Below, piece after piece: positions 12,291-44,695 of a stretch of DNA of 64,000 nt. The position numbers and the translations under genes are program-made. Source of the DNA: Cheiracanthium punctorium (Eukaryota > Arthropoda > Arachnida > Araneae > Cheiracanthiidae). The DNA lies in assembly GCA_038373885.1 (NCBI GenBank), contig JAWZYV010012350.1, positions 124,001 to 188,000 on the forward strand, given 5' to 3'. The notes beneath the pieces are model-generated. The model was not told where the DNA came from and did no database searches. It saw only the letters and a list, made by a program, of their open reading frames with translations. The stretch's first letter is position 1, and each line of letters opens with the position of its first letter.

Positions 12291-13240
12291 CCCTGGTTGG
12301 CTACTGGACAAGGATTATGGGAGTTCAAAGTTATGCCTTTTGAACTCTGCAACGCACCAGCTACATTCGAGCGTCTAATGGAGACAGTATTGAGAGGACT
12401 TCCTACGAAGCATGTCTCGCGTATTTGGATGATATCATCGTCGTCGAGAAGACTTTCGAAGAACATCTAGAGAACATCCGAAAGGTGGTGCAGAAATTAA
12501 AAGAGGCAAACTTGAAACTTTGTCCATCTATGTGCAGTCTGTTTCGTCGGGAAGTACGTTATCTTGGGCACATAATATCCGCCCACAGAGTCCGAACCGA
12601 TACCGAAAAGGCGTCCGCAGTCAAGAACTGAAGTCGTCCTGAGAATGCCCATGAGTTGCGAAGTTTTCTCGGACTGTTTACTTACTATCGAAAATTCGTG
12701 AAGAGTTTTTCTCAAATTGCAAGACCACTTCACAAATTTACCGAGACTGGAAAAAAATTTCAATGGACTGAAGAATGTGAGGATGCATTCAATGAACTGA
12801 AGACAGCTTCAACATATGCGCTGATTCTCGCGTTTCCTCATCCTGATAAGCCATTTATCTGGACACAGACGCAAGTAAGGAGAGTGTTGGAGCCGTTTTG
12901 TCCCAAGAGATAGATGACCAAGAACACATAATTGCTTACTGGAGAAAATGCCTTTCGAAGGCAGAACCTAACTATTGTGCTACGAGAAAGGAACTTCTTG
13001 CTATCGTTAAGGCCGTGAAGCATTTCCATCATTACCTGTACGGCCGAAAGTTCCTGCTCCGAATGGATCATGCCTCTTTAACCTGGCTTCTAAATTTCAA
13101 GAATCCGGTGGGCCATATAGCCAGGTGGATACAGAGATTGCTAGAATATGACATAGAAATACGTCATCGGAAAGGATCATCTCATGGAAACGCAAATACT
13201 TTGTCGAGAAGACCCTGCATAGAAAGTTGTTAATATTGCT
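12291..13240 (+). pseudogene. Gypsy-A reverse transcriptase (palm/thumb) and RNase H
   Basis: The frame from 12300 enters in the palm (KVMPFELCNAPATFERLM). The YLDD catalytic box is present at about 12420-12435 but a frameshift lies just before it. The thumb follows (12425-12631), then a stop near 12630, then a connection domain with the RSFLGL...YYRKFV segment (12656-12850). Near 12857 an indel shifts the frame across the LDTDAS motif of RNase H. The correct bases are still there in the alternative frame. RNase H continues at 12898-13233 (YWRKCLSK, TRKELLAIV, RMDHASLTWL), ending with an A-Leu-Ser-Arg-like terminus. At least three disabling changes. Confidence 0.92.
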
Positions 13241-13731
13241 CCAGGGCAGAGAAAAATTATCATCTGAAACTTCCCGTTGTACGCCAAGTTACATCCTCTG
13301 TACCATCTCAGGATCCTGGAGTGACGTAAATCTTCGGGCGCACCAATTAGCAGATAGCGACATTAAACCTATTGTGCAATTTTTGGAAAAATCCAGCGCT
13401 AAGCCCAGCTGGCAAGAAATGTCGTCATATAGTCTGGTAACGAAACAATACTGGGCTTTGTGGGATTCGCTTCGCCTGAGAAACAGAGTCCTGTTCGTAA
13501 ATGGGAGTCGGACGACGGCAAGATGCTCCGATGGCAGTTAGTACTCCCTCGTTCGAGGATTCCGAAGGTTCTAGAAGAATTGCATAAAGGCTTAACTGGG
13601 GGCCATTTTGGCATTATGAAGACTCTGCAGAAAGTTCGCGAGCGCTTCTACTGGGCTAGGGCTCGTGCCGACGTTGAAAAGTGGTGTCAAGCTTGTGACG
13701 CCTGTGCTGTCCGTAAAAGCCGAAGAAACGT
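13241..13731 (+). pseudogene. Gypsy-A integrase N-terminal zinc-binding domain
   Basis: After a linker region (13227-13541) a frame at 13460-13731 contains the HHCC zinc-binding signature, HKGLTGGHFG then CQACDAC, typical of retroviral-type integrases. It is followed by a basic segment. Homology stops at 13731, exactly where an inserted element begins. The integrase catalytic core resumes 17.5 kb downstream at 31289. Confidence 0.9.
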
Positions 13732-14220
13732 CCCAGCAAACACACTACTGCCCGCAAAATGCCGGCCGGGTACCCGTCGTGCTGGCAAAGTGCCGTCTAC
13801 CAGGAGCAAGGTAGATTGCCATCGACTGGAAGTCATTGGAGTGCCAGTGTCTGAAAAGTGCATATTCGTCAGTACATAACTGGTAACGGCGAACTGCCAT
13901 GTGCCTATGACATGCACAGAAAAGTTAACGGCGTGGTACTGCTTAAAATGTACCGGACCAGCACTATTTGGCAGTAATGGGCCTGTATTTATTTCGTAGT
14001 GTTAGCATAAAATTTCGTTATTTTAATTAAATAATATTTTTTCACATTCATACTCGGTAGAAGTGTTAGGGGATACAAGTTCCGGGCACCCAAAGGCAAG
14101 GGTCATTGCTAAGATTCTTCTTTCTTTCTTTCTTTTTTTTTTTTTTTTTTTGAGGGAGGGGTGTAAGGGGAGAAGTTCATATGCTATAAAAAGGTTTACT
14201 ACAGCGACAGTGAAACCCGC

Positions 14221-14257: not shown

Positions 14258-15147
14258 GGGGTGAAGTACGAGGTGAATTTTATTCTTAAAATTTTTATAA
14301 TTTATATTAATTTTTTACAATTTTGCTAAACTTTTCCTGAAAAACATATTTGCAGACTTTTTCTACGTTGAGCTCCTGTAGTTATTTTGTTAGAAATTAA
14401 GCAATGAGACAGTATTTTCATGTAATAGTCAAAAATAGAATGTACGCAATGGGGTTCATTTAGGAATTATATTTACTTTATTCTATATTTCGATTCCCCT
14501 TACGGGCCTCATAAGAAAGACCTCCATCCGCCTCTCTCTCTGCCGAGGAATCCTAAACGATCTCGAAAGAAGGCAGCAAAAATCGAACTGTTATCTTTTT
14601 ATTTGACAGTAAATTCTTATGAAACGCGAAGTTAAATATTAGTGGTTTGGTGGGGAGGGTCTGTCGCCAAGCTATTTACTGCTTCAGTGATATTTTGAAA
14701 ATTGGCGAATTACATTTTGGAATCTCAAGGTTTTAAAGTTTTTAGCGGTTTCATGCATTTACATCTTTCCAAAGTGTTTAATTGGTATTTTTAAACTGTT
14801 CCAGACTAACAAGATCTCATCGTTAGGAATAGTTACTTTAATAACACTATTTCAACGGTGAGATTTTTGTTAGTTCACATTTGCATGCCTTGGATTTGGA
14901 TTTAACTGGGATAATGCCCTGGATTAATTAGAAACATAACAGGTAAAATTTTACTTACACTGTTTTTAATATACAAAATCTCATTGCATATTATAGTGTA
15001 TAAAAGTATTTTCCTTCAAGAAATTTGAGTCATGTAGGTACAACAGGTATATAGAAATGTCTTTTCAGAATAGCTAACATCAAAAAAATCATTTGATCAA
15101 AACAAAATGTACAATAAAGCAAAATGTTACTCTAAAGTTATGTGTAA

Positions 15148-15249
<102 letters not shown>

Positions 15250-16042: not shown

Positions 16043-16047
16043 ATAAT
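16043..16047. other. Gypsy-B target-site duplication, left copy (ATAAT)
   Basis: ATAAT immediately before the left LTR matches ATAAT immediately after the right LTR (31284-31288). Removing Gypsy-B rejoins the Gypsy-A integrase frame at a Tyr-Asn-Val-Gly-Ala-Pro-Phe segment. Confidence 0.85.
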
Positions 16048-16048
16048 A

Positions 16049-16290
16049 TGGGGAAAAGGCTACGACCATATTAACAAACAAGGTACTTTATTAAACAACA
16101 ATTACACACGGACAATTAATTACAAACACTTAGATAGACTGAGCGACGGAGACGTCTTCTCTCGTCGGCTGCAGTTAACGTCTCTCTCGATTACGCAGTA
16201 GGAAAGGAACATCTTATGCTTGCTAGGCGACTGCCGCGCCACACATAATGTAACGGCGTTAGCTAAGGAGTTTGCATTGAACTTCCTACA
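16049..16290 (-). repeat. Gypsy-B 3' LTR
   Basis: 242 bp, starting TGGGGAAAAGG and ending TTCCTACA on the plus strand, so TG...CA on both strands. Every base I compared matches the copy at 31042-31283. Confidence 0.95.
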
Positions 16291-16652
16291 TTCGGCCATC
16301 ATGACCGCTAAGGCGACCTCGCCTGAAGTTACAGAATAGTTGATTTTTATTTATTTTTTTTAAACAAATCAATAGCTTATCACTACAACAACAAAACAAT
16401 CACTAGCTTATGTATTTAGAAAAAAGGAGCTTAACAATGAGCAGTACAGTTATACATTACCACAGGAAGAATAATATAATGCAAAACTTGAATACTGGAA
16501 TAATGCTGCAATTAAGAAGTGCTAAAATAAAGAAAAGAAAATGAATTATAATAATTAAATTTTAAAGTCATTCGAAGGGTAAAGGAAAAAAAAGGTTTCT
16601 CAATATAGTCTTAAGTCCTTCGGTGAAGAAGAAAAAAAATATTGAACACAGT
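16291..16652 (-). other. Gypsy-B 3' untranslated stretch
   Basis: This lies between the integrase stop and the 3' LTR. I could not identify a clear polypurine tract next to the LTR: the adjoining bases on the element strand read GGTCATGATGGCCGAA. Confidence 0.5.
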
Positions 16653-17844
16653 TCAAGTTATGTGTTCGACAGTGCTGGTCCAAGGTTTCATGAACTCTGC
16701 GCAGGTGGAGGTTTTGGATGGACCGTCGAAGAAAGCACATTTTTCGACATTATATGTGTCATTGTTTTTCACTTTTGTGACTTTATAGGGTCCAAGGAAT
16801 TTTCGCTTCAGTTTTAATCCAGGACCAAATTGGGTTCGTTTGATTGCAACTAGATCATGCAACTGGAATTGTGGAGCTTGCCTGCGTCGAAGGTTGTACG
16901 TTCGGCGATTTTCTTCTTGAACCTTGGTGATCTGTTGTTTAGCATCTTTACGAAGGTCGTCGCGGTGTTGTTCAAATGCAGCTTTTACCTCGTCGTTGAT
17001 GAGTTCGAGAATTTTTAAGTCGTGTTCAGATTTCATTTTTGTGCCAAAAAGGAGTTCAAATGGAGTGGTGTTTATACTCCTTTGGAATGTCGAGTTTATG
17101 ATTTGCTGTAAGGCGGGTACATGGGAATACCATTTTTCTGGATTGTCAATAGACAATTTGGAAAGAACAGCTATAATGGTAGTATTCTGGCGTTCAACCT
17201 GGCCATTAGATCTCGGTAGGCCTGCTGTGATGGAGATATGAACGATGTTTTGTTTGGAACAGTATTCTTCAAAAGCGGTTGAGGTGAAAGCTGGTCCTCT
17301 GTCCGATATGATACGCGATGGATTTCCGAAGACCGATCTTTGATTTTCTAACCGATTGATTACTTCTGCGGCGTCCGTTGATTTAGTTGGATAGAGCCAT
17401 GTAAATTTTGTAAAGGCATCTATTACCACAAAAATATGTTTATAACGCTTGGAAGTGGTGGCAAGAGGTCCTAAATGGTCGACATGGTAGGTATGTAGAG
17501 GTGTATCGTCCTTGTCAATCGGGTGTAGCAGTCCGTCTTGCTTTCCGCGTTTACGGTTGTTGAGAATACATGTAACACAATTTTGGATGCACTGTTTAAT
17601 TTTGTCTTTTAAGTGTGGAATGAAATAGTCCTTGTTCAGGATCTCTTCTGTGCGAACAACAGCGAAATGACCACGTTCATGTGCTGCTTTGATGATGTTG
17701 GCTTGCATGCTCTCGGGAACTACCAGGAGGTCTTTGCCATTCACTGTTTTATACAGAAGATCATTTTTCACGATGTAGTTGTCATGAGCTGCGGTTTGAA
17801 GAAGCGTTTTTATCGCTGTGATCTGTTCATCCGTCTGCTGTGCT
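16653..17844 (-). CDS. Gypsy-B Pol, integrase part (downstream of the TTAA insertion)
   Basis: This integrates the retrotransposon cDNA into the host chromosome. From the internal Met at 17771 it runs 372 residues, and 24 further codons upstream connect it to the TTAA site. Zinc domain: H31 and H35 (HERGH), C65 and C68 (CVTC). Catalytic triad: D98 (HVDHL), D157 (ISDRG) and E193 (QVERQ), with exactly 35 residues between the second and third. A C-terminal module has FLGPYKV at 325-331, the GPY/F-like segment of Ty3/Gypsy integrases. There are no internal stops. It is the direct in-frame continuation of the 27569-30756 region: without the insert, the Lys codon across TTAA is restored and the polyprotein would be about 1459 residues. 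As it stands it is separated from its start by 9.7 kb. Confidence 0.95.
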
Positions 17845-17848
17845 TTAA
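17845..17848. other. TTAA target duplication, left copy
   Basis: TTAA at the left border of the foldback element, matched at 27569-27572. It lies within the Gypsy-B coding frame. Confidence 0.92.
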
Positions 17849-19169
17849 GGCCCCTCCTCAGACAGAAATTTTTCTGAGTCGCGTTTTGAGGGACAATTTC
17901 CTACCCCCCTCACAAAAGCTCCTATCGCGAAATGCGATAGCTCGCCTGTCCGTTACTGATGGGAAATTTATGACCCGTTGGCGGGGTTGGGAGATTTTGA
18001 CCTGTGACCTCCATCTACATGCCCCCGCTGCCTGAGCAAAATTTATTTTCACTTGAGTGTATTCGTTCGAACAGATTTAAATTGCAGAATACTCAATGAT
18101 AAATTACAAGTACTATAATAAAAAATTTATTTAATTTGCAAAGGAGACTGCAATTTGTAAAGTGTTGTTATAAAAATTAACCTTTTAAAAGAAAATATCG
18201 AAGCACGAATATGAGAAATTTTACATCGTAATTATTCTACTATATAGTTACGCTGAACCCTGACTGGCTGACTCAATTTGTAAAGATTCCAGGCAAACCA
18301 CTTCGATGTAAATATTTTACCTTCATTACTCCAAAAAGATTAAAAACCGGAAAAAGCCTAATAACACCCACACCATTCATACGATCCGCTTGAAATTTTT
18401 CATAACTATGTATAAAAATATAAAAAACAATCTCTGTTACTTTGAAAATCTGAAAACCCACCGGTTCCCTCATTTTTTAAGAGATTTTTTGCCATTTTCA
18501 GCTCCATTTTATTTCAGATTCAAAAAAGCGAATAATTTGACTGAAAAAATTAGACTTTCAAAGTGTAAAAAAATTGTCATATTCACGTCACGGTAATCTA
18601 TCTGCCTTTGAAGGGAAAATTGTGATTCATTCCTTTAAAATTGTTTTTCTAGATTACATAGTTTATTTATTTATTTTTTCACAAATAAATCGTCTGCATG
18701 GATATGAGAATGACAAAACGAAATCTTTTGAATGCCATAAGTTTCCGCGCGTTTCCAGAAGAGGATGAAATTCGATTTGGGTGTATAATAAAAATTGAAT
18801 AGGAAGTTATTTATTTTAGGTAGACGAAGACTAAATGTATTCAGTGTAGACATTTTCGTCGAATGTTTTTTCAAGCGCCCGTTGTATTTGCCTCCACAAC
18901 GGGCTTTGATTTCTAGTTTGGTTAATATGATGAAAAAGTGACATAAAATAATACATTTTTTTAAACTTTCCTTATATACATAATTGCTTAAATCTGGGCG
19001 TTGAAAAATACTTTCATTAAAAGTACGCAGTTGCGACAAATTAAAATATGCATAATAGTTTACACGATTGATTGTGTAAAATATTTTCGTGTATAATACA
19101 AATTTACCTACTTCCTAGTCCTTGACTTTGTTTTCTGATCTTTAATATATATATATATATAAACTTTTA

Positions 19170-19900
19170 AAAATGGCAATTTGGGGAGAAATAGGAATTT
19201 TTTTGCCTCGAAAACACAATTTTTGCGAATTTTCAAAACCGATATCAGAGAGTACGGAAAGTTTTTTCTTGGGTTGGCTAATAACCGTGTTCTTTTTTTT
19301 TTTCTTTTTGAAAAGAAGACTAACTTATGGCATGCTGGTGCCTACGGGAATTTCGGCCAAAATAGGCTACCCCCCCCCCCCACAGAAAAAAAATTGGGGG
19401 GGGGGGAGGGGATTTTTGAAATCTGTATCAGCCGAATGCTGGAAAGTTGTTCCTGGGTTAGTAAGTAACTGCTCAACCCCCTCCCCTCCTAAAAATAAAA
19501 AAACGGACAATATCTTCAGATGGCACTGGCTCATTTAAAATCGGGTATTTTAGCGAAAGAATTTCCAAAAATAAAATTTACCGGATTTTGGAAATCTTTA
19601 ATAGTTCTGCGGTAAAAACGCTTCTTAATTTTAGAGTGTATCATATAAAGAAGTTTCCGCGCTCGTCTGATATCGATTTCAAAATTCGGAAAAATTGTGT
19701 TATGGGGAAGAAAATGTCTATTTTGGCCCTAATTCCCAAATTTAAAGGCGTTGGCGCCACCGGAAGACATTGTCGAACTTCGAAAAAAATTACAGGTTAT
19801 TATCCAACCCAAGTGACAACTTTTCTGATATCGGCTGATACCGATTTCGAAATTTTGCAAACTGTATGTTTTCTGGAAAAAAATATATCCAGAACAGATA
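19170..19900. repeat. Degenerate sub-repeats in both orientations inside the left arm
   Basis: A ~100-bp motif recurs: a segment like GGTTATTANCCAACCCAAG, then a CTGATATCG / CCGATTTCGAAA-like core, then a TTGTGTTTTC-like end. It appears in one sense at about 19640-19730 and 19795-19890, and in the opposite sense at about 19180-19290 and 19410-19470. The right arm carries the mirror set (about 25050-25800). Confidence 0.6.
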
Positions 19901-20439
19901 GAATCCAGAATATATATGTACACTACTGGTCAAAAGTATTGAAAGTTTCAGAATCTAACCATCTTTTCAAGAATGATACCACAAAAAATGGACAAAAAAC
20001 TTGTTAGATTTATATCTTTTTAAGAATTTTTGAATTATAATTAGCGGTACGGAATTTTCGCAAATAAAAACAGAAAATTCGCAGGAAAAAATATGAAGGT
20101 TTGAAATTTTAATAAAATTCGCATAAACTACTTACAAAACATTTAATGTGCTGATACTTGCAGCCCTAGATGGGCAAAATAATTGAACTATCTGGAAATA
20201 AACTCCATTTGATTTCATGTGCAAAAAAGTTCATACAAAGTTTTTTCAGATGTGTTTTATCATTGTGTTCAGATCTAAATTCCCTGATTGTTGTTCAAGA
20301 GTTATTTTCAACATTTCTAATTTGTTCCACAAATGGGGAGCAAATGGTTAACTTGAACCAGGCGAAATACACGAAAGATGAGAGATAAAATGACATAGTC
20401 AATTAATATCGTTTTGATATGGCAATAATGAAACAAAAA

Positions 20440-20545
20440 GTTAGGGGGTTCAGGGGGGGGGGGTCTTCCCCTGACGAGGCTCGAACAGCCGAGTTTCCTA
20501 TCTATCTATCTATCTATCTATCTATATATATATATATATATATAA
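20440..20545. repeat. G run and (TATC)n/(TA)n microsatellite beside a GTTCGAGCC-like box
   Basis: A G run (20450-20463), then CCTGACGAGGCTCGAACAGC, then (CTAT)n and (TA)n. The complementary sequence GCTGTTCGAGCCTCGTC on the minus strand resembles a pol III B box. The same block occurs at 23700-23765 and, inverted, at 24370-24480. Confidence 0.7.
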
Positions 20546-20603
20546 AACTAATAAGTAAAACACAATATGTACTGCAAATAAGATATACCTCGCATTACAT
20601 ATA

Positions 20604-20765
20604 CACAGTGGAACCTCCTAAAGTGACCACAAGTCTATACTGACTACTTTTGTAAATTTTCCCTTTCTAATCACCGCACATTGCAACCTTTGTAAATTGA
20701 CCACTTTATAAGATGATCAATTTTGTTGATTCCGAGGGTGGTCACATAAGGCAAGTTCCACTGTG
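20604..20765. mobile_element. TA-flanked MITE (CACAGTGGAAC ends), left-arm copy
   Basis: CACAGTGGAACCTCCT at the left and its imperfect complement at the right (GTTCCACTGTG). TA precedes it. 162 bp. Inner sequence TAAAGTGACCAC / GTGGTCACAT is also complementary. Type and TA target suggest Tc1/mariner/pogo-type MITE. It lacks about 17 bp present in the partner copy. Confidence 0.8.
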
Positions 20766-20791
20766 TGTATATATGTATATATATATATATA

Positions 20792-21233
20792 CAGTGGCGC
20801 ACCCAGAATTTTGGTTTAGTGGGGGCTGGGGTTACAAATACTTCTGAACTCTGTTATAGTGACCCCGATTATCGTTATAACTCTTAACATCAAAGTATTC
20901 ATCACCACTTGCCCATAAAACACAAGACCACTATCAACGTAACTCGTTATAGAGTCATAAATAATTATCCAATCTTTTCATTGATGTTGTACTCAAGTTT
21001 AACTTTATTTTATACACTAACTAGAAGTATTTATTTAAAAACCAACATCCCCCCGCTTAAATTAATACCCCCACAAAAAAAACAGGAATAATTTGAAGAC
21101 AATTTTTTAAAATAAAATATTTTAATTCATAAGTGAGAATTTTCAATTTTTAAAGCTTTTCGCATCTAACTCTCCAGGTTTAGGCAGGGGGGGGGGCTTC
21201 AGCCCCCATAGCCCCCTCCGTGGGTGCGCCTTA
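20792..21233. mobile_element. hAT-type MITE (CAGTGGCGCACCCA end), right end altered
   Basis: It starts CAGTGGCGCACCCAG and ends near CCGTGGGTGCGCC, the same family as the intact copy at 26930-27345. The right tip runs straight into TTAAGGCTC instead of the expected ...TATG, so the end is truncated or replaced. The target duplication cannot be checked in the TA-rich flank. Confidence 0.75.
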
Positions 21234-21247
21234 AGGCTCTTAAGGCT

Positions 21248-21277
21248 CTGAGGAAGAGCCTTAAGGCTCTTCCTCAG
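21248..21277. repeat. Perfect 30-bp palindrome centred on TTAA
   Basis: 13-bp arms (CTGAGGAAGAGCC and its complement) around TTAA (21261-21264). The right half plus the next bases (GGCTCTTCCTCAGACAG) closely matches the outer tip of the foldback element (GGCCCCTCCTCAGACAG). The palindrome is therefore two element tips joined head to head across one TTAA. A further TTAAGGCTCT lies just to the left. Confidence 0.92.
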
Positions 21278-23609
21278 ACAGATCGAAAGAAGTTTCCTTT
21301 CCATGTTAAGCAATGGGAATTTTATTACTTCGGTTTTCAAGTAATATCTCGGCACTAAATTAATATTTTTAAATTTTTCTTTCATTGTTGTTTTCTTGAA
21401 AGACTTCTCACCTTTTCCATCTTTCAGATTTTAGAAATATTGCTTTGATGTATTTTTTATTTAATATTAAACACAATCATCTATCTACAAAGACACGAAT
21501 TCTGACAGTCAACTGCGATTTTCTCAGACCAGACTAACTTTTTTGAAATTTGGTAAAGATAGAAAAATTGCAGTGCACTTTGCCTTTTCAAATACATAAG
21601 TATTTTTTATCTAATCCATAAATTTGATTTTTAGCGATTTATTTACACATTTTTGATGAAAAATTTTCAGATGTTTTCCACCCCCACTTGCCCACCTGTT
21701 GCGTTACCACCCGCAGAGATGAAAAGGGGAGAAGGAGGAACTTGATTTACGACTCCTCGCAGAAAAACTCTCTGTTTAAAGGCTTGGTTTGTATTGAAAA
21801 GGAATAGATTTGTTTCGGATGGATGATGTAAATGGAGGGACAATTTACATTGCACAGTACAATTTCCACTTATATAATATTTAAAAAGTTTAAATGCACA
21901 AACTTTTTTAGGTGAAGCAGCTTCAACCTAAAATTGTAGGAAAGTTTATTTCTCTTTTGTAATTCCATATATATCGAAGTTTCCTTCTGATGTTCGGTAA
22001 TCAACTAAAGCACTATTCATTACGCTCATTACCTATATATATACATATATATATATTTTACTTGTATATAATTTTTCACACAGCTATATAAAATGCTAAA
22101 GAAAAGGACCTTTAGTATATAAGTAAAGGTTAAAAAGAAATATAAGTAAATAGTATTATCCAGTAAGTAAAAACATATTGGACTAATTTATATGTGTGTG
22201 TGTGTATCTATGCACGCGCAATCGAATAGGCAAACTCACATCATCTAATCCGAAAGTCACTAGTGACCAGAGTGTTTGACAAATTTTAATCGAACTTGAC
22301 TATTAATCATCCGCATCTTTTTTTTTTTTTTTTTTTCCCCTGTAATTCCAACTTCCAACAATGTCCGCCTTCTTTTCATACTACCCTCTGATTGCAGTTC
22401 TACATCTTACGTTTTCGGGTCCCAGATGTATTTTTATACTTATCCGTTACAAAAGCTTCATTAGTAATCAGTCAAATATATTGGCGCCTTTCTTTTCCTT
22501 TCTTATTGCATGTTTAAACTTTAGTACGTGAATGCGTCTTAGTGATCCAGAAGAGGTTTTGGAAGACACAATTATTTTATTTCCCCGTGAGACTTGTGCG
22601 CCAAAAATTCGCAACATGCGTCCTCTAGGAGTGGAATTCGAGGCAATTGCCCCTCCTCCCCTCTCGGTGGGTCGGGTCAGGGTCAGCTGGATGGGACCCC
22701 TTTTTCGTATATTGTCCCAGGACCACAGTATAGCTTTTTGAATAACTCAAAATGAATCCCGATTTAAATATGATGACTGATCAAAAATGAAGGAAAAACA
22801 TTGTTTACGCATCGAAATTTTGAAGTACGGACGCAGCTATAGCGGGCATTATTTATTCTGTTGGCTAAAAGGGAGGAAAAAACAGAATATATTTAAAGAA
22901 TTTGTTCATATTAACCATTTTTAAAAAATTCTCTGTGGTATTAATACATCCAAAAACATACTACTCACAAAAATATTTCTAAGCCGATTTGAAATTTCTC
23001 AATCAAATGAAGTGTTTAACTAACTCAAAAGTATTAGAATTTGCTTTTAGGATCATATTTAAAATTTTCTGTGCATTTAAACTTCTTCAATGTTATATCA
23101 GTGTAAATTTTACTCCGTGCTGGGCAATGCAAATTGTGCTCATTGATATTTAATTAATTTAATTGGGAGGATACAAAACTGAAACGCCCGACACGTGAAG
23201 ATGCCTCTGATTACAGGATCTTGGCTCACAAGCTGATGAGCTGATTTCAGTGCAATTTATTTTGTTTGAAAGCTGATTTCACGAGTGTTTCTTAGTTACA
23301 TTGGACGATATTGATTTCAACATATTGAGGCTTATTTTTTAAAAATATAAATGCTTATTTGCACTTGTTTTCTAGGTGTGGTTGATTACATTCTTAATAA
23401 CTAAAGCAGCCTTTTATTAATGAATATGTCATTTTATCTCTCACCCCCTTTATTGAATTGTCCCAAAAAAGCGACATAATTTTACATATATTTAAATACT
23501 ATTAGTTCGCAACAACTTTAATCCATTGTTACAATATTTCGTAAGGTGTAGATATGCATCCCATGTATTTTTCTATAAATAGGTTACAATCATAAAAATT
23601 TCAACATAG

Positions 23610-23830
23610 GGTTACCAGGCGAAAAGCACGAAAGGTGAGAGATAAAATGACATAGTTAATTAATATCGTTTTAATATGGCAATAATGAAACTAAAAAATT
23701 AGGGGGGGTCATAGGGGTCCCCCTGACGAGGCTCGAACAGCCGAGTTTATATATATATATATAACTAACAAGTAAAACACAAAACATACTACAAATAAGA
23801 CATATCTCGCATAAGAATATAACAGCTATT
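23610..23830 (+). repeat. Third, partial copy of the inner arm block, direct to the left arm
   Basis: It matches 20360-20600 in the same orientation: GAGATAAAATGACATAGT, the ATATCGTTTT...ATATGGCAATAATGAAAC stretch, then CCTGACGAGGCTCGAACAGC and the TA run. It is more diverged than the two arms are from each other. Confidence 0.85.
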
Positions 23831-24111
23831 AGCAAGAATTAGAAACCAGATTTTGAAGCCAAATAAAGTGCAAGAATTATTGTGATAATATAATGGAACG
23901 GAAATTATAACCACTGTCACCATCGTCAGGGGCCACAAACAGTGGATTATAATTTACAGCAAACCAAATAGTAGGGTTTCGGTTGTGTGGCATATCAGAA
24001 GAGATATTAACTCCACACATCTGGGCCCTACCCTACTATATAAAGGAAAGAAGAAATCAAAAATATAACAAAAATTAGAAATATAATTTTACATACCAGA
24101 CCTTTAGCACA

Positions 24112-24138
<27 letters not shown>

Positions 24139-24143
<5 letters not shown>

Positions 24144-24317
24144 TGGAACTTGCCTTATGTGACCACCCTCGGAATCAACAAAATTGATCATCTTATAAAG
24201 TGGTCAACTTACAAAGGTTGCAATGTGTGGTGATTAGAAAGGGAAAATTTACAAAAGTGGTCAGTATAGACTTGTGGTCTCTTTACGAAGGTGGTCACTT
24301 TAGGAGGTTCCACTGTG
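24139..24317. mobile_element. TA-flanked MITE (CACAGTGGAAC ends), right-arm copy
   Basis: 179 bp, TA on both sides, ends CACAGTGGAACTTG and GGTTCCACTGTG. This is the fuller version of the copy at 20604-20765. Confidence 0.85.
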
Positions 24318-26929
24318 TATATGTAATGCGAGGTATATCTTATTTGCAGTACATATTGTGTTTTACTTATTAGTTATATATATATATATAATATATATAT
24401 AGATAGATAGATAGATATAGATAGATAGATAGGAAACTCGGCTGTTTGAGCCTCGTCAGGGGAAGACCCCCCCCCCGAACCATCTAATTTTTTGTTTCAT
24501 TATTGCCATATCAAAACGATATTAATTGACTATGTCATTTTATTTCTCATCTTTCGTGTATTTCGCCTGGTTCAAGTTAACCATTTGCTCCCCATTTGTG
24601 GAACAAATTAGAAATGTTGAAAATAACTCTTGAACAACAATCAGGGAATTTAGATCTGAACACAATGATAAAACACATCTGAAAAAACTCTGTATGAACT
24701 TTTTTGCACATGAAATCAAATGCAACAAATGGAGTTTATTTCCAGATAGTTCAATTATTTTGCACATCTGGGGCTGCAAGTATCAGCACATTAAATGTTT
24801 TGTAAGTAATTTATGCGAATTTTATTAAAATTTCAAACCTTCATATTTTTTCCTGCGAATTTTCTGTTTTTATTTGCGAAAATTCCGTACCGCTAATTAT
24901 AATTCAAAAATTCTTAAAAAGATATAAATCTAACAAGTTTTTTGTCCATTTTTTGTGGTATTATTCTTGAAAAGATGGTTAGATTCTGAAACTTTCAATA
25001 CTTTTGACCAGTAGTGTACATATATAGTCTGGATTCTATCTGTTCTGGATATATTTTTTTCCAGAAAACACACAGTCTGCAAAATTTCGAAATCGGTATC
25101 AGCCGAGGTCAGAAAAGTTGTCACTTGGGTTGGATAATAACCCTGTAATTTATTTCGAAGTTCGACAATGTCTTCCGGTGGCGCCAACGCCTTTAAATTT
25201 GGGAATTAGGGCCAAAATAAACATTTTCTTCCCGATAACACAATTTTTCCGAATTTTGAAATCGATATCAGACGAGCGCGGAAACTTCTTTATATGATAC
25301 ACTCTAAAAATAAGAAGCATTTTTACCGCAGAACTATTAAAGATTTCCAAAATCCGGTAAATTTTATTTTTGGAAATGCTTTCGCTAAAATACCCGATTT
25401 TAAATGAGCCAGTGCCATCTGAAGATATTGTCCGTTTTTTTATTTTTAGGAGGGGAGGGGGTTGAGCAGTTACTTACTAACCCAGGAACAACTTTCCAGC
25501 ATTCGGCTGATACAGATTTCAAAAATCCGGTGAGCGGAAAAAACGCCACTTTTAATAGTTTTATGATGTAACATAGTCGTTATATGCTAATCGATGAGGA
25601 AAGGAGCGTAGCCAGAATTTTTTTTCGGGGAGGGGGGGTTGTATGAGATATAATTTTGTATTGATAAACTTAATTTCTTTAAAAAAAAAAAAAAAAGAAC
25701 ACGCTTATTAGCCAACCCAAGAAAAAACTATCCGTACTCTGCTGATATCGATTTTGAAAATTCGCAAAAATTGTGTTTTCGAGGGAAAAAATTCCTATTT
25801 CGCCCCAAATTGCCACTTTTTAAAGTTATTATATATATATTAAAGATCAGAAAATAAAGTCAAGGACTAGGAAGTAGGTAAATTTGTATTATACACGAAA
25901 ATATTTTACACAATCAATCGTGTAAACTATTATGCATATTTTAATTTGTCGCAACTGCATACTTTTAATGAAAGTGTTTTTCAACGCCCAGATTTAAGCA
26001 ATTATGTATATAAGGAAGTTTTAAAAAAATGTATTATTTTTATGTCACTTTTTCATCATATTAACCAAACTAGAAATCAAAGCCCGTTGTGGAGGCAAAT
26101 ACAACGGGCGCTTGAAAAAACATTCGACGAAAATGTCTACACTGAATACATTTAGTCTTCGTCTACCTAAAATAAATAACTTCCTATTCAATTTTTATTA
26201 TACACCCAAATCGAATTTCATCCTCTTCTGGAAACGCGCGGAAACTTATGGCATTCAAAAGATTTCGTTTTGTGTTCACAGTCATTCTCATATCCATGCA
26301 GACGATTTATTTGTGAAAAAATAAATAAATAAACTATGTAATCTAGAAAAACAATTTTAAAGGAATGAATCACAATTTTCCCTTCAAAGGCAGATAGATA
26401 ACCGTGACGTGAATATGACAATTTTTTTACACTTTGAAAGTCTAATTTTTCCACTCAAATTATTCGCTTTTTTGAATCTCTGAAATAAAATGGAGCTGAA
26501 AATGGCAAAAAATCTCATAAAAAAATTAGGGAACCGGTAGGTTTTCAGATTTTCAAAGTAACAGAGATTGTTTTTATATTTTTATACATAGTTATGAAAA
26601 ATTTCAAGCGGATCGTATGAATGGTGTGGGTGTTATTAGGCTTTTTCTGGTTTTTAATCTTTTTGGAGTAATGGAGGTAAAATATTTACATCGAAGTGGT
26701 TTGCCTGGAATCTTTACAAATTGAGTCAGCCAGTTAGGGTTCAGCGTAACTATATAGTAGAATAATTACGATGTAAAATTTCTCATATTCGCGCTTCGAT
26801 ATTTTCTTTTAAAATGTTAATTTTTATAACAACACTTTACAAATTGCAGTCTCCTTTGCAAATTAAATAAAATTTTTATTATACTTGTAATTTATCATTG
26901 AGTATCCTGCAATTTAAATCTGTTCGAAC

Positions 26930-27345
26930 CAGTGGCGCACCCAGGATTTTAGTTTAGGGGGGGGGGAATGGGCTACATAATATTGCTGAACTCAGTCATA
27001 GTGATCTCTGTTAGTTACAACTCTCTTATAACGTCAAAATATTCGGTATTACTTGACTGTTCCATAGAACATAAGCAATGTAACTCATTATAGAGTCATA
27101 AATAATTATCTGATCTTTTGAGCAACGTTGTAACCGTGTGTAAGAGTGTTTCAACTAACTGTGAGCATTTATTTAAAAACTTTATTGGTTAGAAATAATT
27201 TGAGGACAGTTAAAAAAAGAAAGAAAGAACTAAAAAAAATTATTTCATTAGCGACAGTTTTCATTTTTTAACGCTTTTCACTTCTAACTTTCTACCTTAA
27301 GGGGGGGCTTCAGCCCCCATAGCCCCCTCCGTGGTTGCGCCTATG
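26930..27345. mobile_element. hAT-type MITE with exact 8-bp duplication GTTCGAAC
   Basis: It starts CAGTGGCGCACCCAGG and ends CCGTGGTTGCGCCTATG. GTTCGAAC flanks it at 26922-26929 and 27346-27353. The same site in the left arm (18065-18072) is empty. An 8-bp duplication and a CA-G start are hAT hallmarks. There is no coding capacity. Confidence 0.93.
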
Positions 27346-27568
27346 GTTCGAACGAATACACTCAACTGAAAATAAATTCTGCTCAGGCAGCGGGGGCATG
27401 TAGACGGAGGTCACAGGTCAAAATCTCCCAACCCGCCAACGGGTCATAAATTTCCCATCAGTAACGGACACGCGAGCTATCGCATTTCGCGATAGGAGCT
27501 TTTGTGAGGGGGGTAGGAAATTGTTCCTCAAAACACGACTCAGAAAAATTTCTGTCTGAGGAGGGGCC

Positions 27569-27572
27569 TTAA
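27569..27572. other. TTAA target duplication, right copy
   Basis: Partner of 17845-17848. It falls on Leu-Lys codons of Gypsy-B Pol between RNase H and integrase. Confidence 0.92.
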
Positions 27573-30500
27573 GGAACTGAATATGAACACTGTTCTGAAT
27601 GGTCATGCAACAGGGATTACGACTAAGTGCGTCGACATGAGCCATTTTTGAGCCGTTGCGATGTTCTATAGTAAAGTTAAAGTCCTGAAGGTATAAGGCC
27701 CATCTAGCGATACGAGTGTTGAGATCTTTTTTATTTAAGGTTTTGACGAAGGCATCACAGTCCGTGATAATTTTGAAGTGAGTACCTAAAACGTAAATCC
27801 GAAACTTCTTTAGGGCTTCAACAACGGCAAGGACTTCCAGCTCAAAACTTGTATACTTTCGTTCACTATCAGAGGTCTTTTTGGACATATAAAATACAGG
27901 ATGAAAAGAGTTATCTTGCATGGATTTTTGCATTAGGACTGCCCCCAAGCCATCTATTGACGCGTCAGAGTGAATTTCAGTGGGAGAGTTCTGATTAAAA
28001 ATACTTAAAACAGGTTGTTGTGAAAGTAAATATTTTAATTTTTCAAATGCGGCTTTTTGTTCAGCCTGGAATTGAAAGGGGGTGTCCTTACGCAAAAGGT
28101 CGCTAAGAGGTTTTGCTATGGCAGAATATGAAGGAATAAATTTTCTGAAATATCCGGTGAGACCTAAAAATCGGCGTACATCTTTAATATTTTTCAAATC
28201 CGGATAATTTAGGACAGCTTTAGTTTTCGAGGGGGAAGGAGACAGTTTACCGCTTTCTACTACATGGCCTAAAAATTCTATTTTAGTGTGTAAAAACTGG
28301 CATTTGCGGAAATTTATGTCTAATCCATAATCACGGGCTACATCAAGGACAATTTTTAAGCGTTCGAGAGCCTCAGACTCACTAGTAGCTGGGATGACAA
28401 CATCATCCATGTACGGGAGTACAATGCCCTTAGCAATAAGTTCACGAAAAACGACGTTTATATAACGCATAAAGGTAGATGGACATGTACTAAGGCCAAA
28501 CGGCATAAATCGGAAGAGATATTGGCCTTTGTGTGTCACAAAACTAGTATAAGGACGGCTTTTTTCGTTTACGGGAACGTGGAAAAATGCATTTCGTAAA
28601 TCGAGTGTAGAAAATATTGTGGCATTTTGAAGACTATCTAAAATGTCTTCGATCAACGGAAGGGGAAAGTGATCTTTGACTATTTTGCGATTTAATCGTC
28701 TGTAATCTATGCATACTCTAGGTTTTCCGTCTTTTTTTGTTACAACTAGCACTTGGCTTGCGTAGGGAGATGAACATGGCTCAATAATTCCATTTTTGAC
28801 CCATTCGTCAATTTGTGCATCTACTATATCACGCTCAGCAAATGGCAAACGTCGGGGTGCGTGGAAAATTGGCTCGTCGTCAGTGAGCACGATGTCAAGT
28901 TCAACGTTAGCAGTTTTCGTTTTATTGGGTGCATAAGCCAACAACAGCTTCTCAACGCCAGCGCGTGTTTGACTGGTGACATTCGGGCCGATGTCAAAGA
29001 TGGGAGAATCGTCAGAAATTGACATAATAGAATTTTGAGGTTCTACAGGATCAGATGCCGTTGGAAGTTTTGAAAATATTACGCCTGCAGGGGAAATGGT
29101 TAAATTTGTTTGCTGTATTATGTCACACCCGATTATGAGGTCATAATTTGTGCAAGCATTCGGCACTACAGAAATAGTAACCGGAAAAATTTGGTCGTCA
29201 ATAGTAACATCACAGTCAAAAGTACCAATGACATTTGTTCGCGAAAAACCGAAACCCGTCAATACTTTAGTGTTATTCAATAATGGTGGAGAACCTATTT
29301 GTACCCATGCAGAATGTCGAAGCAACGTCAAATTGCTACCTGTGTCCACTAATCCGGGGAATTTATTGTCAAAAATAAGAACTTCCTTACACATGTTTAC
29401 AGAAGGAAATTCACGTACGGTATTTACTTTTGCTGGTGAAGTAGAACTATCGTTTCGCATAGCTCGGATACATTCAGTCGACTTGTGACCAAAAAGATTG
29501 CATGCTAGGCACTTCGGGCCTCGAGAGCGGTTAGGACACCATTTAGACTTGTGTCCGACGTCATTGCAGTTAAAACAACGTTGCAGGGTGTTAGCTGTGT
29601 CAGAAACATTAAATTTTGAGGGTTTTCGTTGTTGGTTTGGTTGTTCTGTACCGCGGTTTGAGCTGTCAGGTGAGTGACGAAAATTCGACGAATTTGATCT
29701 ATTAGCTCGCATGTTATTAACAAAAGTTTCGTAAGTTCTTAATTTTGTCTTAAATTCGGAAAATGATGTTGTCCCATAAAGGATAATTTTGTCTGAGCGG
29801 GAACCTTCAATACCGTTTATGACGTACTGAATAACAGAACACTCGTCAATAGCGCAATCGCATCTATTTGCCAATTCGCGCATGGAATTAAAATATTGAG
29901 TAAATGTTTCGTTAGGGCGCATTTTTCTTTTTTCAAGCTGCCGATGAATTTCTATTGACGTGACTGTGTCTGAAAACTCGTTAATTAACGCAGATTTAAA
30001 CGTATCGTATGCATTTAGATTTCTTTGCGACGACAGAAATGACTTCGCGGAACCGGTAATCAATCTTTTTGCAAACACTAATTTTTGTTGATCACTTATG
30101 CAAGGGAATAATTGGAAATTTTCCTCCAAGTCTATAAAAAAACTTTTAATTGAATACAAATCATCTCCTGAAAACTTTCTACTATTTGCAGATATATCTC
30201 TTAAAAGATACCAGAATTGATTAGTCATATCTGAAACTGCGCTGGGGCCTAGAATGGGCAACTGTGCATTACTCGGTTGGGTAAGGTAAACAGAGCTTGG
30301 GTTTTGCATCGCAGGAACACTGTTTATATCAGAGGCACCATTAGGGGAAAATTGACCTACATTCGTGCTACTCGCTTCTGCCGATGTGTTAATAAGTGGA
30401 TGGTCATGTTCTAAATCAGAGAGATAACTGGTGTCGAGAGAATTTTGAAAGTCTTGCAAATTTGTTAGGGCATTAAAAATGCTGTTGCAAATATCTTTTT

Positions 30501-30756
30501 CGTTTGCATTTGATTCCAAATGTAATAAATTTGCCACTGAGATAAACTCATTTAAGGAGAAATCTTTTAATATCTGTTCTTTATGTTTTTCTAGATCTAA
30601 TTCGATTGGGAAGGAAGAGAAATTACGTATTTTGGTACGGGAAGAACGATCAAATTCTTTAAAACCAAGTATGGTGTTTAATGCTTTAACAGTTTGAGTT
30701 TTGCCAAATTTCAATGAGTTTGCTATTAAATGTATGTCTCCTAGTTTTAACGACAT
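27569..30756 (-). CDS. Gypsy-B Gag-Pol: Gag, protease, reverse transcriptase, RNase H
   Basis: A single open frame from ATG 30754-30756, so Gag and Pol are fused. Residues ~190-350 are a retrotransposon Gag capsid-like region. Two CCHC zinc knuckles lie at C394-C407 (CFNCNDVGHKSKWC) and C416-C429 (CLACNLFGHKSTEC). Protease active site is D471-T-G-S, with IIG at 541-543. Reverse transcriptase spans about 640-830 with YMDD at 782-785. RNase H has D931 (HSDAS), acidic residues near 972-974 and D999, ending near HVDALSR. At Lys1063 the frame enters the TTAA element and reads about 50 foreign codons to a stop at 27418, so the present product would lack integrase. No frameshift or stop precedes that point. 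It makes virus-like particles and cDNA in the cytoplasm in active relatives. Confidence 0.96.
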
Positions 30757-31041
30757 TTTGAAAAAGAATACAGTTTCTGAATGTAAATAAAAACTAGAGA
30801 AATTCTGCAGAATTGTTTAAAAGGAAAATAACGATCTAAATTAAAAGAAAAATCTAGCCTACTTGAAATGGGGAGCAGTCCAGCAGTTAATCCACACCTC
30901 AAACCATGTATTTAAATTCGTCAAACTGCGTTCGTCCATATGAGAGCTTCTGAAGCTTATCGTCTTTTAGGGAATACACTGGCTTGTTGATGTCTAGAGG
31001 AATTCTCTGGAGTGTGAGAGGACGGTCGAGCCCCCAAAATA
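30757..31041 (-). promoter_or_regulatory. Gypsy-B 5' leader with tRNA-Pro-type primer-binding site
   Basis: On the element strand, 5 nt after the LTR, TGGGGGCTCGACCG (about 31036 down to 31023) matches the 3' end of tRNA-Pro (known primer-binding site TGGGGGCTCG in tRNA-Pro-primed retroelements) with one mismatch in the first 14. The rest is a non-coding leader up to the ATG. Confidence 0.75.
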
Positions 31042-31283
31042 TGGGGAAAAGGCTACGACCATATTAACAAACAAGGTACTTTATTAAACAACAATTACAC
31101 ACGGACAATTAATTACAAACACTTAGATAGACTGAGCGACGGAGACGTCTTCTCTCGTCGGCTGCAGTTAACGTCTCTCTCGATTACGCAGTAGGAAAGG
31201 AACATCTTATGCTTGCTAGGCGACTGCCGCGCCACACATAATGTAACGGCGTTAGCTAAGGAGTTTGCATTGAACTTCCTACA
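31042..31283 (-). repeat. Gypsy-B 5' LTR
   Basis: Identical to 16049-16290 as far as I can compare. Followed by the ATAAT duplication at 31284-31288, where Gypsy-A integrase resumes. Confidence 0.95.
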
Positions 31284-34678: not shown

Positions 34679-37558
34679 CTAGCTGCGTACCCGTTCTCCG
34701 CACGGTGGGAAAAGCATATTTACCTTAAACATATATAATTCGAATTAAACCCAGTAATTCGGAATCTCAAAACGGGAAAAATTACTTGAATCGTGACTAA
34801 AAGTTGACGTCATGAGTGCAAATTTTAGACGATTGCAACATGACACAAAAACTACGTCAATGTGACTGGCGATCAAAAAAGAAAGAACTTTATGGTATGC
34901 AGACAAAACTTTTCTCTTTCGAAAAATGCCCGATTTCTACATCATATAATTCTCTTTGTGAGGTTTAATTTATAGCATTAATATATAGTATATACCACAT
35001 AAATAACATTACATGATGTTGACAATATTTTTATCTTGCATTTTTCACAGCGTGGACAATGCATTAGGGCAGTTATGTTACACACGACTTTATTAAATTT
35101 TACCTAAATTAAAAAACCTACATGATACACAATGGATGCATCATTTACGTTTAAAAGCCAAAAATGTACCCTGCTCCGTTGAAAATCATGTCGCTTTTGT
35201 AAACGAAAACGTTCGGGATGTAACTTCTGAAAAAAACTTGTTACCCTTATTGAACCTTAATGCAGTATCACACTTGTTACATAAAAGTGACGTTTATCTC
35301 ACTGTCAATTCGCCCTAATTAAATAACTAATTTCATTTTTCATTTTTTACAGATTACAGTTGACCCCTTTATAACATGGGATAATCTGCCAGCAAAACAG
35401 CAAAACTGACGTAAAAAATGACATCCACACTAGAAGGAAATAAAATTAAAAATATGTAGAATTGCATAAAAACTTCGATTATTTTTAAGGTGCAAGTCTG
35501 TTACAGTTCTATTTGTTTCACAATTGATGCGTTTTCACTTTTTCGATTCTTAAAAGCTGTAGAAATGAGTGGTTTCACATAATTGTAAAATTTAACAATT
35601 TAAGTGGCAACAATGGATTCCGTTGCTACGGAAACTATAGCAATGTTAAAAATAGAACATGAAATGGGTTATTCATGTTTACTTTGCTAGAACTGCCATA
35701 TTGGCGAAATTAACACCGCCAGTCGATGGCAAATAGCTCAAACCACAAATTAAACTTGACACTAAAGGCAATACTCTGTTTGGCGGAATTAAAAAAATAT
35801 ATATATCTATGCATACGCTAGTGACATCGGCTCATCTCAATTGTGGAATGGAATTAATAATATGTACAGAGTTGCACTACATTTGAATATTTTTCGCCAA
35901 CTTTGCTAAGAAATGTACTAAAGTAGGAATCAACAAACATTTCAATTCGTAAAACAAAAAATATATTAGACAGTATTAATTACGCCTTTCTAACAGCTTC
36001 TAGTAAAAGAAAATTCCGTAGCTCTGCTTTAACAAATAAGAATCAATTATTTGTTACACAGTACTTCGATCGCCAAATGCCAACATACACCATTTTGCGA
36101 GATTTTTTTGTTTTCAGGGAATCATTCGAAGCATTGATTTAACAGCAATCAAAATGGGAAATAGTTATCTATCATTTATATGGTTCTATCGCCAAAATTT
36201 AATGCAAGCATATTATTGATGAGCAGCAGTTATTTAAATATATAGCGGGTTTTAATCACCGTTAACTACCATGTACAAAATGCGAGAATTTCAATTTTCT
36301 GAAATTGGCGGAATTCCTCTAACTTAAATCAGTTTAATTAATTTGGTGAAAATTCTATAGATCGTCTAAAATCGCCTTAATAACTGCATTATTTCTGTAT
36401 GGAAAATCGAAGTATAGCGCCGTAAAATTTATACTTGTTATTAAAAATACTATTTCGTTACGCTCTCAGTAATTTGCGCCAAGCCCAAAACTGTACAAAT
36501 CGGTAGAACCTACTACTTTCTCAAAATCGCCAAATGAGCCATTTTTTTTTTTTTTGGCCAAACTAAAAAATATATATATTAGTCTAGGAAATTTCTCAAT
36601 CCCTTATTCTTTTACACATAAAAAACATTGAATTCCAGTTCTGATTCAACATGAACGCAATATTTTAATTAAAAAATAACTTTGTAAATAATCTAAACAG
36701 AAAAAACTCATTATTCTTTTATTTTTACTGCAGGAGTCTAAATAATTTAATAAAATAGCCAAACATGGCAACCTCGATGCTTATTTCTCACTTTTTTGAC
36801 TACAGGGTTACAATCACGGAATTGCGGAGAGCAAAAATTAGCGTTTTTGATGGGGTTTTTTATCAATATCTCCTAAACTAATTCGAATTTCGAAATTTAA
36901 ATTAGCGGAGGTTCTTTCTCGAAATTTTCCGAATTCGTGGATACCTCGTTCGAAACTCAACTCCCAGCCGTTTAGGAAGAGATGATGCTACACACACACA
37001 CACACACACAGATAGACGCGCACAGATTTTAATAGTATAGACTAGAATCCACTTTCTCAAAATCGCCATATAAGCCATTTTTTTCGCCAAATTATAAGGT
37101 TATACACTTTAGTCTCTGAAATTTACAAATCCTTTTTCTTTTGCGTATAAAAAATATTGAATTCCTGCTCTGATTTCCCACGCAGACGATATTTTAATTA
37201 AAAAATAACCTAGCAAATATACGAAACAGAAAAAAAGTATTATTCCTTTATTTTTAATGCAAGAGTATAAATCATTTAATAAATTCGCCAAACATGGCAA
37301 CCTCGATGCTTATTTCTCACATTTTCACTACAGGGGTTACAATCGCGGAGATGCGGAGAGCAAAAATTAGTGTTTTTGACGGGGTTTTTTATCAATCTCC
37401 TAAACTAATTCGAATTTCGAAATTTAAATTAGCGGAAGACCTTCCTCGTAATTTTTCGAATAAGTGGACACCTCGATCGAAACTCAACTCCCAGCGGTTT
37501 CGGAGGAGATGATGCTACACACATACAGACAGACGCGCACAGATTTTAATAGTATAGA
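34679..37558 (-). mobile_element. Helitron-like unit 2
   Basis: CTAG 3' terminus at 34679 with hairpin, and TCTATACTATTAAAATC 5' terminus at 37558 on the minus strand. Its 5' ~510 bp are tandemly duplicated (about 36530-37037 and 37040-37558), giving an internal second 5' end with (CA)n and the same AGACGCGCACAGATTTTAAT tail. Non-autonomous. Confidence 0.8.
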
Positions 37559-40500
37559 CTAGCTGCGTGCCCGTTCTTCGCACGGTAGGAAACGAATATT
37601 TTACTAAAATCTAATCGTAACTATCTATGCAAAAGCAAAATGTCAAAAAGTTCAAGTAGTCCTTTTGTTGAAACTACCGTGGAATATATTACGCAACGTA
37701 GGATTATGGTTTAGTTAGTTATAAGACGATTGTTGAAAAATAATTAATATAACACTTTTAATTTCACGAAATAGCTATTAACGTGGTATACTGTTCTTCA
37801 ATCCATATTATCCAAACAAATCTACTATTACTACCAAAGATAAAAATGAGAATACTATCTATTACTTATATTAATATTATCTATCTTCGTTTCTCAGTCT
37901 TTAATGCTCAATTTAAAGAAACAGATTAGATATTTTAAACCAATGATGCCTTTCTACTTTTTGGTGATTCCGTGAAATTTATGCGTTGCCATTAAAACAG
38001 ATCTTCATATATTTTTAAGCATAATTCTTGTCTGATTGGCGTATTTAGCACAGCAAAATATTTCATCTCGCAGTGGGTGAAAACATCCAAGCTGTACCAA
38101 TTTAAATATTATTTAAATCCACCATGGTTCAGACTCGTGAAAACATCAAACTGTGTAATCTCGAGGAACTATTTGGAATCGCTCAAATTGCGAATAGGGC
38201 GTTAAACTGTGTTGCAGAGTTTACGCATTTCAGACAACTTTTAATTTATGACGTCACGTTCTGACCAGGGTAATCGAATTTAGTCATTTCGCGCAGTAGT
38301 TTTCAAACGGAGTAATATTGAAACATACGACGTTGAAAAACTCTCGCTTGCAACAGAACTTTATTAAAGTTAATTTGAGAGATATTGGGGTTATTCCTAG
38401 CTAATCGGTATTTCAAATATTTTCCGTATCCATATTGCTAATGATGTAACTTTTGTGCAAGAGCTTGTTAAGTTGCTAAAATTTAACCAAAAAAAGTATA
38501 TCTAATATAGATAATATACCGCCAAAAGTCGTCCAAACTTGGCGACATTTTGCACGATTTTTGGGAATACATACAACGACCGTCTTCAAACCAATAGCGA
38601 ATACTATGCATTGTGTTAATTAGTATTTTGCATCTTGTGGCGACATTTGAATTTCCCACGATTTTAAAAAATGCAAGTTTCCTTTCGTTATTATAGTAGC
38701 TGAAAAATCACAGAGCTCAAAAATCGCTAAGGGTTACACGCGCATTAAACAAAATACTTGAATTTTTATAATAGTAAATTTTTGCGTCAAAGCCTTTTAA
38801 TGTTATTGGATTTCTAACTCATTTTTAAACTCAAGATGTGAAAATGACATCATTCTCAGTTGCGATATCTAACATGAATTAGTGAAAGAAGAAAAAGAAA
38901 AAAAATACACGTTATTTTATTTTCTACAGCATCTGATAATCTGGATGGAAGTTTATTATTTCGCTCCTGGTATACTTTTTTACCAAAACTTGTTAACCTC
39001 ATTAGGATATTTAATGCATTTTTTCATTCGTGACATCAAAATGACGTCAGTCTTAGTTGAATTATTGAAAGTACTAAATAAATAAATCTAGCTTTGCTAA
39101 CTACGCTCACGAATGTGCTGAAATCGGACATTTGGGTAGCTTTCTACCCTGAAAATTGCGAAAAATCCTAAAAAATTAGGGAACGGGTGGATTTCCAGAA
39201 TTTTAAAGCAGCCTTCGGACTATTCTATGTCGTTCTACATGTATGTGCAAAATTTCAAGTCGATCAGTCGAACAGTGCTGGAGGAGTTCCCGGACGAACA
39301 AACAAACAAACTTTCACATTTATATAATAGATTGCATTGCATGAAAACTTTGATTATTTTTAAAGAAGCGCAGATATGTTAATGTTCTAATTTTTTCATA
39401 TTTAATGCGTTTTCATTTTTCGAGTTTTAAGAGATGTAGATGTTAATGATTTCACTTATTTTTATATTTAACAACTTAAGTGGCAACAATGGATTCCGTT
39501 ACTACGGAAACTGTAGCAATCTTAAAAATAGAACATGAAATGAATTATTCATGTTTACTTTGCTAGAACTGCCATATTGGCGTAATTAACGCCACAAATT
39601 AATGGTAAATAGCTAAAAGGAATCACAAATTAAACTTAACAACAAAATTCAAAAATTTACCAGCAATCCTTACAACACCTACATTTTTTACCGGGCTGAA
39701 AAACCATTCTTATTCACCTCCAAAAGCATTCGTATTTTTAAAGAATTCCAATTTTATTACACCTTGTTTGGTGGGATTAAAAAAAATATCCAAGCATACG
39801 CTCATAATATCGACTCATTCCAATCGTGGAATGTAATTAGCAGCACAAACGCGAGAACATACTCTATTAAACACAGCGTTACACTATATTTGAATATTTA
39901 TTGCCAGCTTTGCTAAGAAAGGTAAAGTAGAAATCAACATACATTTTAATTTGTAAAGCAAGAAATTTATCAGACAGTATTAGTTATATGCATTCTAACA
40001 GTTACCAGAAAAAGAAATTTCCGTAGCACTGCTTTAACGAATAAGAATCAATGATTTTTTACACATTCGATCTCCAAAGTGGCAACATACACCATTTTGC
40101 GAGATTTTTTTCAAGGAATCATTCGAAGCATTGAAATAACCGCAACCAAAATGGGAAACAGTAATCTATCACTCATATGGTTTGATCGCCAAAGTACAAC
40201 AGGCATCTACTTGAAAAGGAGCAGTATTTTAAATTATTAACTATGAGTTAATGTGTTTCATTCATCGTTAACTATGATGTACAAAACGCGAGAATTTCAC
40301 TGACCTTAAATTTGGCGGAATTTCCCCTCACTTTAATCAATTTACTAAATTTGGTGAAAATTCTCAAGTTAGATCGTTTAAATTCGCCGTAATAACTGCA
40401 TTATTTCTGCACTAATAACTGCTAAATTTAAAAAAAAAATTAAAGCTAAACTCTAATAAAACCTACACTTGTTTTTAAAAATACTATTTCGGTACGCTCT

Positions 40501-44535: not shown

Positions 44536-44695
44536 AGATAAGATAAGATAAGATAAGATTATTTATTTATTAGTGTATACTTGCTTAAATTCTTTTGGTA
44601 AGATCTGTTGTTGAAGGTGGTATTGTAACTATTTTTGCGACCTCCTAACTGGGGATTGTACTGCCCGGAACGTGCAGTCCTTGTGAAGGGGGTTA
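44536..44695 (+). promoter_or_regulatory. Gypsy-A polypurine tract region
   Basis: AGATAAGATAAGATAAG microsatellite, then non-coding sequence, then GAAGGGGG (44685-44692) three bases before the LTR start. Such a purine tract primes plus-strand DNA synthesis in LTR retroelements. Confidence 0.75.

Follow-up and report, generated by a model that had tools for sequence, protein, structure and literature searches.

Our analysis concerns a 9.7-kb insert in the genome of the spider Cheiracanthium punctorium, at positions 17,849 to 27,568 of a window of 64,000 nucleotides (the whole stretch of DNA analysed; assembly GCA_038373885.1, contig JAWZYV010012350.1, positions 124,001 to 188,000 of the forward strand). 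The insert interrupts a Ty3-type long terminal repeat (LTR) retrotransposon and carries two long inverted arms; a preliminary description had read it as a member of an undescribed non-autonomous foldback family. We are confident that it represents two copies, E1 and E2, of one asymmetric, apparently non-autonomous TTAA transposon, lying tail to tail at abutting TTAA sites in a young Ty3-type element. The two ends of this transposon are named A and B, and E1 is without its B half. The overall order of the insert is TTAA-E1-TTAA-E2-TTAA, and the features of the locus, including two copies of a miniature inverted-repeat transposable element (MITE), are as follows.

16045-31283, minus strand: interrupted Ty3-type LTR retrotransposon, with LTR-like repeats at 16045-16290 and 31038-31283
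16653-17900, minus strand: integrase open reading frame of the Ty3-type element
17845-17848, no strand: TTAA, left border of E1 (motif read in the sequence)
17849-21260, plus strand: E1, 3412 bp, A end at left, B half missing; no MITE at the GTTCGAAC site, segment type 1
17849-17865, plus strand: A tip of E1, GGCCCCTCCTCAGACAG (tip scan)
17849-20791, plus strand: A half of E1, the left arm of the preliminary description (self-comparison)
20792-21230, plus strand: another hAT-like MITE copy, lying at E1's inner end and sharing about 69% identity with the MITE of E2
21231-21260, plus strand: scar-like inner end of E1, TTAAGGCTC twice, followed by the terminal 12-14 bp of a B tip (21247-21260)
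21261-21264, no strand: TTAA separating E1 and E2, centre of a palindrome
21265-27568, minus strand: E2, full-length copy of 6304 bp, A end at right
21265-21281, plus strand: B tip of E2, GGCTCTTCCTCAGACAG (tip scan)
24113-27568, minus strand: A half of E2, the right arm of the preliminary description (self-comparison)
26930-27345, minus strand: hAT-like MITE in E2, with the 8-bp GTTCGAAC on either side
27418-30816, minus strand: gag-pol open reading frame of the Ty3-type element
27552-27568, minus strand: A tip of E2 (tip scan)
27569-27572, no strand: TTAA, right border of E2

The arms (17849-20791 and 24113-27568, about 2.9 and 3.5 kb) align end to end in collinear blocks, with identity at 2813 of 2931 aligned positions when the one non-homologous swapped segment (19318-19409 versus 25529-25674) is included. 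Outside this segment and the MITE, three aligned blocks give a divergence of 2.06%. A 424-base insertion, made up of the MITE and one 8-bp GTTCGAAC, accounts for the greater length of the right arm; the motif is single in the left arm. We take the MITE to be hAT-like from its 8-bp duplication and its CAGTGGCGCACC end. The alignment bears out the complementary arms of 2.9 and 3.4 kb previously reported, at about 2% divergence, and the identical 17-bp tips (17/17 between 17849-17865 and 27552-27568) and the TTAA on both sides (17845-17848 and 27569-27572) were likewise found as described. Absent from that description is a third tip, at 21265-21281, which differs from the A tip at 2 of 17 positions. 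Fourteen bp of it recur reversed at 21247-21260, just before the inner TTAA, and the stretch 21247-21278 around this TTAA is a 32-bp perfect palindrome. The tip scan, at no more than three mismatches, gave three matches in place of the 0.01 expected by chance. E2 also contains a diverged internal repeat of its own A half at 23614-23812, which is 82% identical in inverted orientation to 24412-24571 and 75% identical in direct orientation to 20357-20595 in E1.

The reported restoration of the Pol frame across the insert holds: 90 nt of each flank, joined by script, are open in one frame. The two LTR-like repeats of the Ty3-type element are identical (246/246 bp), and the best named protein matches among those listed are from the spider Trichonephila clavipes, at 79% identity. 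If the 2.06% between the arms had arisen in place, the probability of 246 identical LTR sites out of 246 would be about 0.006 at equal rates. The contrast between identical LTRs and differing arms therefore makes it most likely that the arms diverged before they arrived at the present locus.

A genome search for the tips, which had been suggested as a check on the foldback proposal, reveals a large family in the host assembly (2.53 Gb): TTAA with the A tip occurs in 156 exact copies and TTAA with the B tip in 165, and the reversed-pattern controls for both gave no match. The A end begins GGCCCCTCC and the B end GGCTCTTCC. About 10 kb was read at each of 20 A-tip loci, fetched by place. In eighteen of these a single A tip faces a single convergent B tip, with TTAA on either side; the B tip is exact in 17 and carries two mismatches in L013, and a second A tip is found in none of the 20 within the stretch read. 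L016, which has no B tip in that stretch, has an exact one about 10.5 kb away, while L023 yielded no B tip and half of its stretch reads N. When the first 100 listed A tips were paired with the first 100 listed B tips, 78 of the A tips had an exact partner in convergent orientation no more than 15 kb away, the implied element lengths spanning 3.6-10.5 kb with a median of 6.34 kb, and one paired with a B tip at 19.5 kb (G000:C8885:30095-49655); among these 100, a convergent A-A pair starts at one only, that of the present locus. The abutted tip-TTAA-tip junction, sought with a degenerate pattern covering A-A, A-B and B-B as exact matches, is likewise found at one place in the assembly, the present locus. 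An exact tip scan of viral contigs gave no matches. Because other copies pair A to B, the usual element of the family is asymmetric, about 6.3 kb long and bounded by short inverted tips; E2 exemplifies it at full length.

Two of three B tips lacking a listed A tip match E2 in part, L034 over its final 1.4 kb, with no match in the remainder as far as the contig end, and L035 over its final 1.2 kb. The third, also an exact B tip, belongs to an old copy (L036/L037, C681:305000-314900) that aligns with E2 in collinear pieces, 61-75% identical, which points to what may be a long residence of the family.

Subfamily markers were counted in 24 copies, namely the 20 fetched by place and L029-L032, chosen for a length of 8.5-8.7 kb. 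The MITE at the GTTCGAAC place is present in E2 and 17 of the 24 copies, and is missing from E1 and the other seven. Segment type 1 is carried by E1 and six copies and type 2 by E2 and 17, with L023 unreadable; all six type-1 copies are without the MITE, and L014 is intermediate (type 2, no MITE). The MITE-less, type-1 state of E1 would be the older state of the subfamilies. A tree of E1, E2 and 17 other copies (L010, L022 and L023 were dropped for an incomplete block, and L029-L032 were not included) groups E1 with the MITE-less L017, L011 and L014 (support 0.94, 0.88 and 0.92), and E2 with L025 and L012 (support 0.91 and 0.78). The distance of E2 to L012 is 0.52%, as against 2.06% to E1; 15 of the 17 copies lie closer to E2 than E1 does, and ten lie closer to E1 than E2 does. 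Judged by their sequences, neither arm is a copy of the other; they are the homologous A halves of two opposed family members. The A-to-B build elsewhere, the sole listed A-A pair, the unique junction and the different markers together argue that no foldback family is involved: the long inverted arms reflect a chance arrangement of two copies and do not represent foldback terminal repeats.

We propose that both copies owe their insertion to a transposase acting in trans, which would recognise the tips and duplicate TTAA, and that the second insertion used the TTAA bordering the first copy; this order of events is tentative. The B half of E1 may have been lost by deletion in place and the gap repaired with filler copied from tip sequence, as suggested by the scar-like inner end of E1, which retains a MITE copy, TTAAGGCTC twice and 14 bp of tip. 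Insertion at an adjoining TTAA is an event of a known kind, because the cited accounts describe coral CMITEs in which a new element formed when a TTAA element inserted at the TTAA of another sequence (PMC2872659), and tandem multimers of KolobokP (PMC9587614).

Several observations weigh against reading the insert as two tail-to-tail copies. At 21 of the 100 A tips listed, one of them that of E1, an exact B tip is lacking on the right side. All 18 copies aligned at the B end retain 15 bp or more of the tip together with the adjoining sequence, as against 14 bp in E1; the inner end of E1 is therefore abnormal, and its separate insertion is not proven. By raw distance the nearest relatives of E1 are MITE-bearing copies with short branches, and its placement therefore rests on the tree and the markers jointly. 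The empty site is reconstructed from the window's own flanks, and no transposase was found in the profiled pieces of the window and of the copies.

Each of the other histories accounts for part of these data. The arms of 2.9 and 3.5 kb, the identical tips and the outer TTAAs are what a true foldback family would display, with a single element bearing terminal inverted repeats of about 3 kb and moving as a unit; yet no A-A pair occurs elsewhere among the 20 fetched and 100 listed A tips, and two arms with different subfamily markers speak against a single element. For the copies seen this history is refuted, and we give it practically no chance. What stands of the earlier proposal is a repeated TTAA family in which no coding region was found; its foldback nature does not stand, given the absence of a second A tip from the stretch read at all 20 loci. 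That the assembler fused two separate copies is highly improbable: the junction is indeed single and flanked by repeats, but the outer flanks on the two sides are parts of a single retrotransposon, whose LTR-like repeats are identical and whose frame is open across the site. The flanks are therefore adjacent in the genome, and a mis-join is possible only in the interior.

The target is touched only by the outer TTAAs, with its frame open across them, and a single insertion would leave this picture as readily as two. Two copies could have combined at another site into a composite that afterwards entered Pol as a single A-to-A unit. The 2.06% between the arms beside identical LTRs does not separate the two histories, since either requires prior divergence. 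We consider such a composite unlikely, as its junction has no second copy in the assembly (though cut-and-paste transposition need not leave one) and no further A-A pair is found among the 100 listed A tips. It is equally doubtful that the 9.7-kb tail-to-tail pair is itself mobile, by way of a transposase that accepts two A tips; if true, such a mobile composite would show a foldback-like element arising from two ordinary copies. The make-up of the inner end of E1 from direct and inverted tip pieces (TTAAGGCTC twice, then the reversed tip) could also be the trace of break repair at the B end of E2, which joined E1 to it with the A half of another copy as template (template switching). Break repair alone leaves unexplained why the outer A tip of E1 is perfect and lies exactly at TTAA, with the frame resuming beyond, and we judge it to be quite unlikely.

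The relative that might have been expected, a full-length element with a DDE transposase between similar tips, was not met among the copies examined. A Pfam scan of six frames of the left arm and loop gave no domain match, and the search included no Kolobok profile by name. Among 18 copies, stop-to-stop frames of at least 140 amino acids are absent from twelve and present in six. Long frames occur in L010, L011, L016, L020, L031, L032 and L035; profiles were run on two frames of L011 and on six frames of L036, and the frames of L036 gave no Pfam match. The 24 A-tip copies and the three B-tip loci lacking a listed A tip yielded no transposase gene of the family, the assembly as a whole not being profile-searched. 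The long frames of L011 were considered as a family transposase and rejected, both belonging to a nested hAT-like element (L011:3267-6702, ends read by eye). Of its frames of 443 and 274 amino acids, the shorter matches PF05699 (hAT dimerisation domain) and the longer matches no family above the cut-off. The long frames of L031 and L032 are Ty3 polyprotein-like, as read by eye.

The tips begin GGCC and GGCT, the termini being GG...CC at both ends, and TTAA adjoins both tips in E2 and 18 two-ended copies, which is partly so by construction because the tip patterns included TTAA. In the accounts cited, Kolobok elements, including the non-autonomous Xenopus T2-MITE, share TTAA duplications and a 5'-RR...YY-3' rule for termini with the present family; full-length Xenopus copies are about 7-14 kb long, with listed 16-bp ends that are unlike on left and right (PMC9587614, PMC6004289). 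As far as the cited description goes, piggyBac has TTAA duplications and short terminal repeats in common with it and differs in its terminal motif CC[C/T]T (PMC2872659). Pfam scans of window pieces gave no match to the piggyBac transposase (DDE_Tnp_1_7), for which the assembly was not searched. Membership in Kolobok is thus likely on the evidence of the termini, though not proven because no transposase was found. The foldback elements Tetris and Galileo are described with very long inverted arms and a non-coding middle, a likeness confined to the present locus, whereas the other copies examined here share only short tips between their ends (PMC4079207). KolobokP multimers and coral CMITE-IN likewise involve TTAA-family members that abut or insert at one another's TTAA (PMC9587614, PMC2872659). 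KolobokP is reported to have long terminal direct repeats and tandem units (PMC9587614), whereas the present units lie tail to tail in an arrangement seen once, and in the self-comparison of the window the ends of E2 are not linked by a direct repeat. A literature search by text, not by sequence, met no description of the present spider family.

Elsewhere in the window, a second Ty3-type polyprotein lies in pieces on the plus strand at 12850-13879, its RNase H domain and its integrase zinc-binding domain falling in different frames. A tandem array of units of about 81 bp (also read as 146, 228 and 457 bp) occupies 1343-2528, and its frames of 200 amino acids have no Pfam match. At 15147-15248, 102 bp match their own reverse complement at 98-100%. 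Long direct duplications extend over 35461-44538, with 37051-41071 and 40549-44538 at 94% identity and further copies at 81-87%.

The locus highlights how two opposed family members at adjoining target sites can imitate a giant foldback element in repeat-rich genomes, and a genome-wide tip search is the means by which such paired copies are separated from a true foldback element. It also reveals a large TTAA transposon family, with more than 150 exact ends of each kind in one spider assembly. Formation of a long double-stranded RNA is physically possible at the present locus, to judge from its sequence, and this potential is a feature of the locus and not of the family. If transcribed, this natural inverted repeat of nearly 3 kb could yield double-stranded RNA in the spider.

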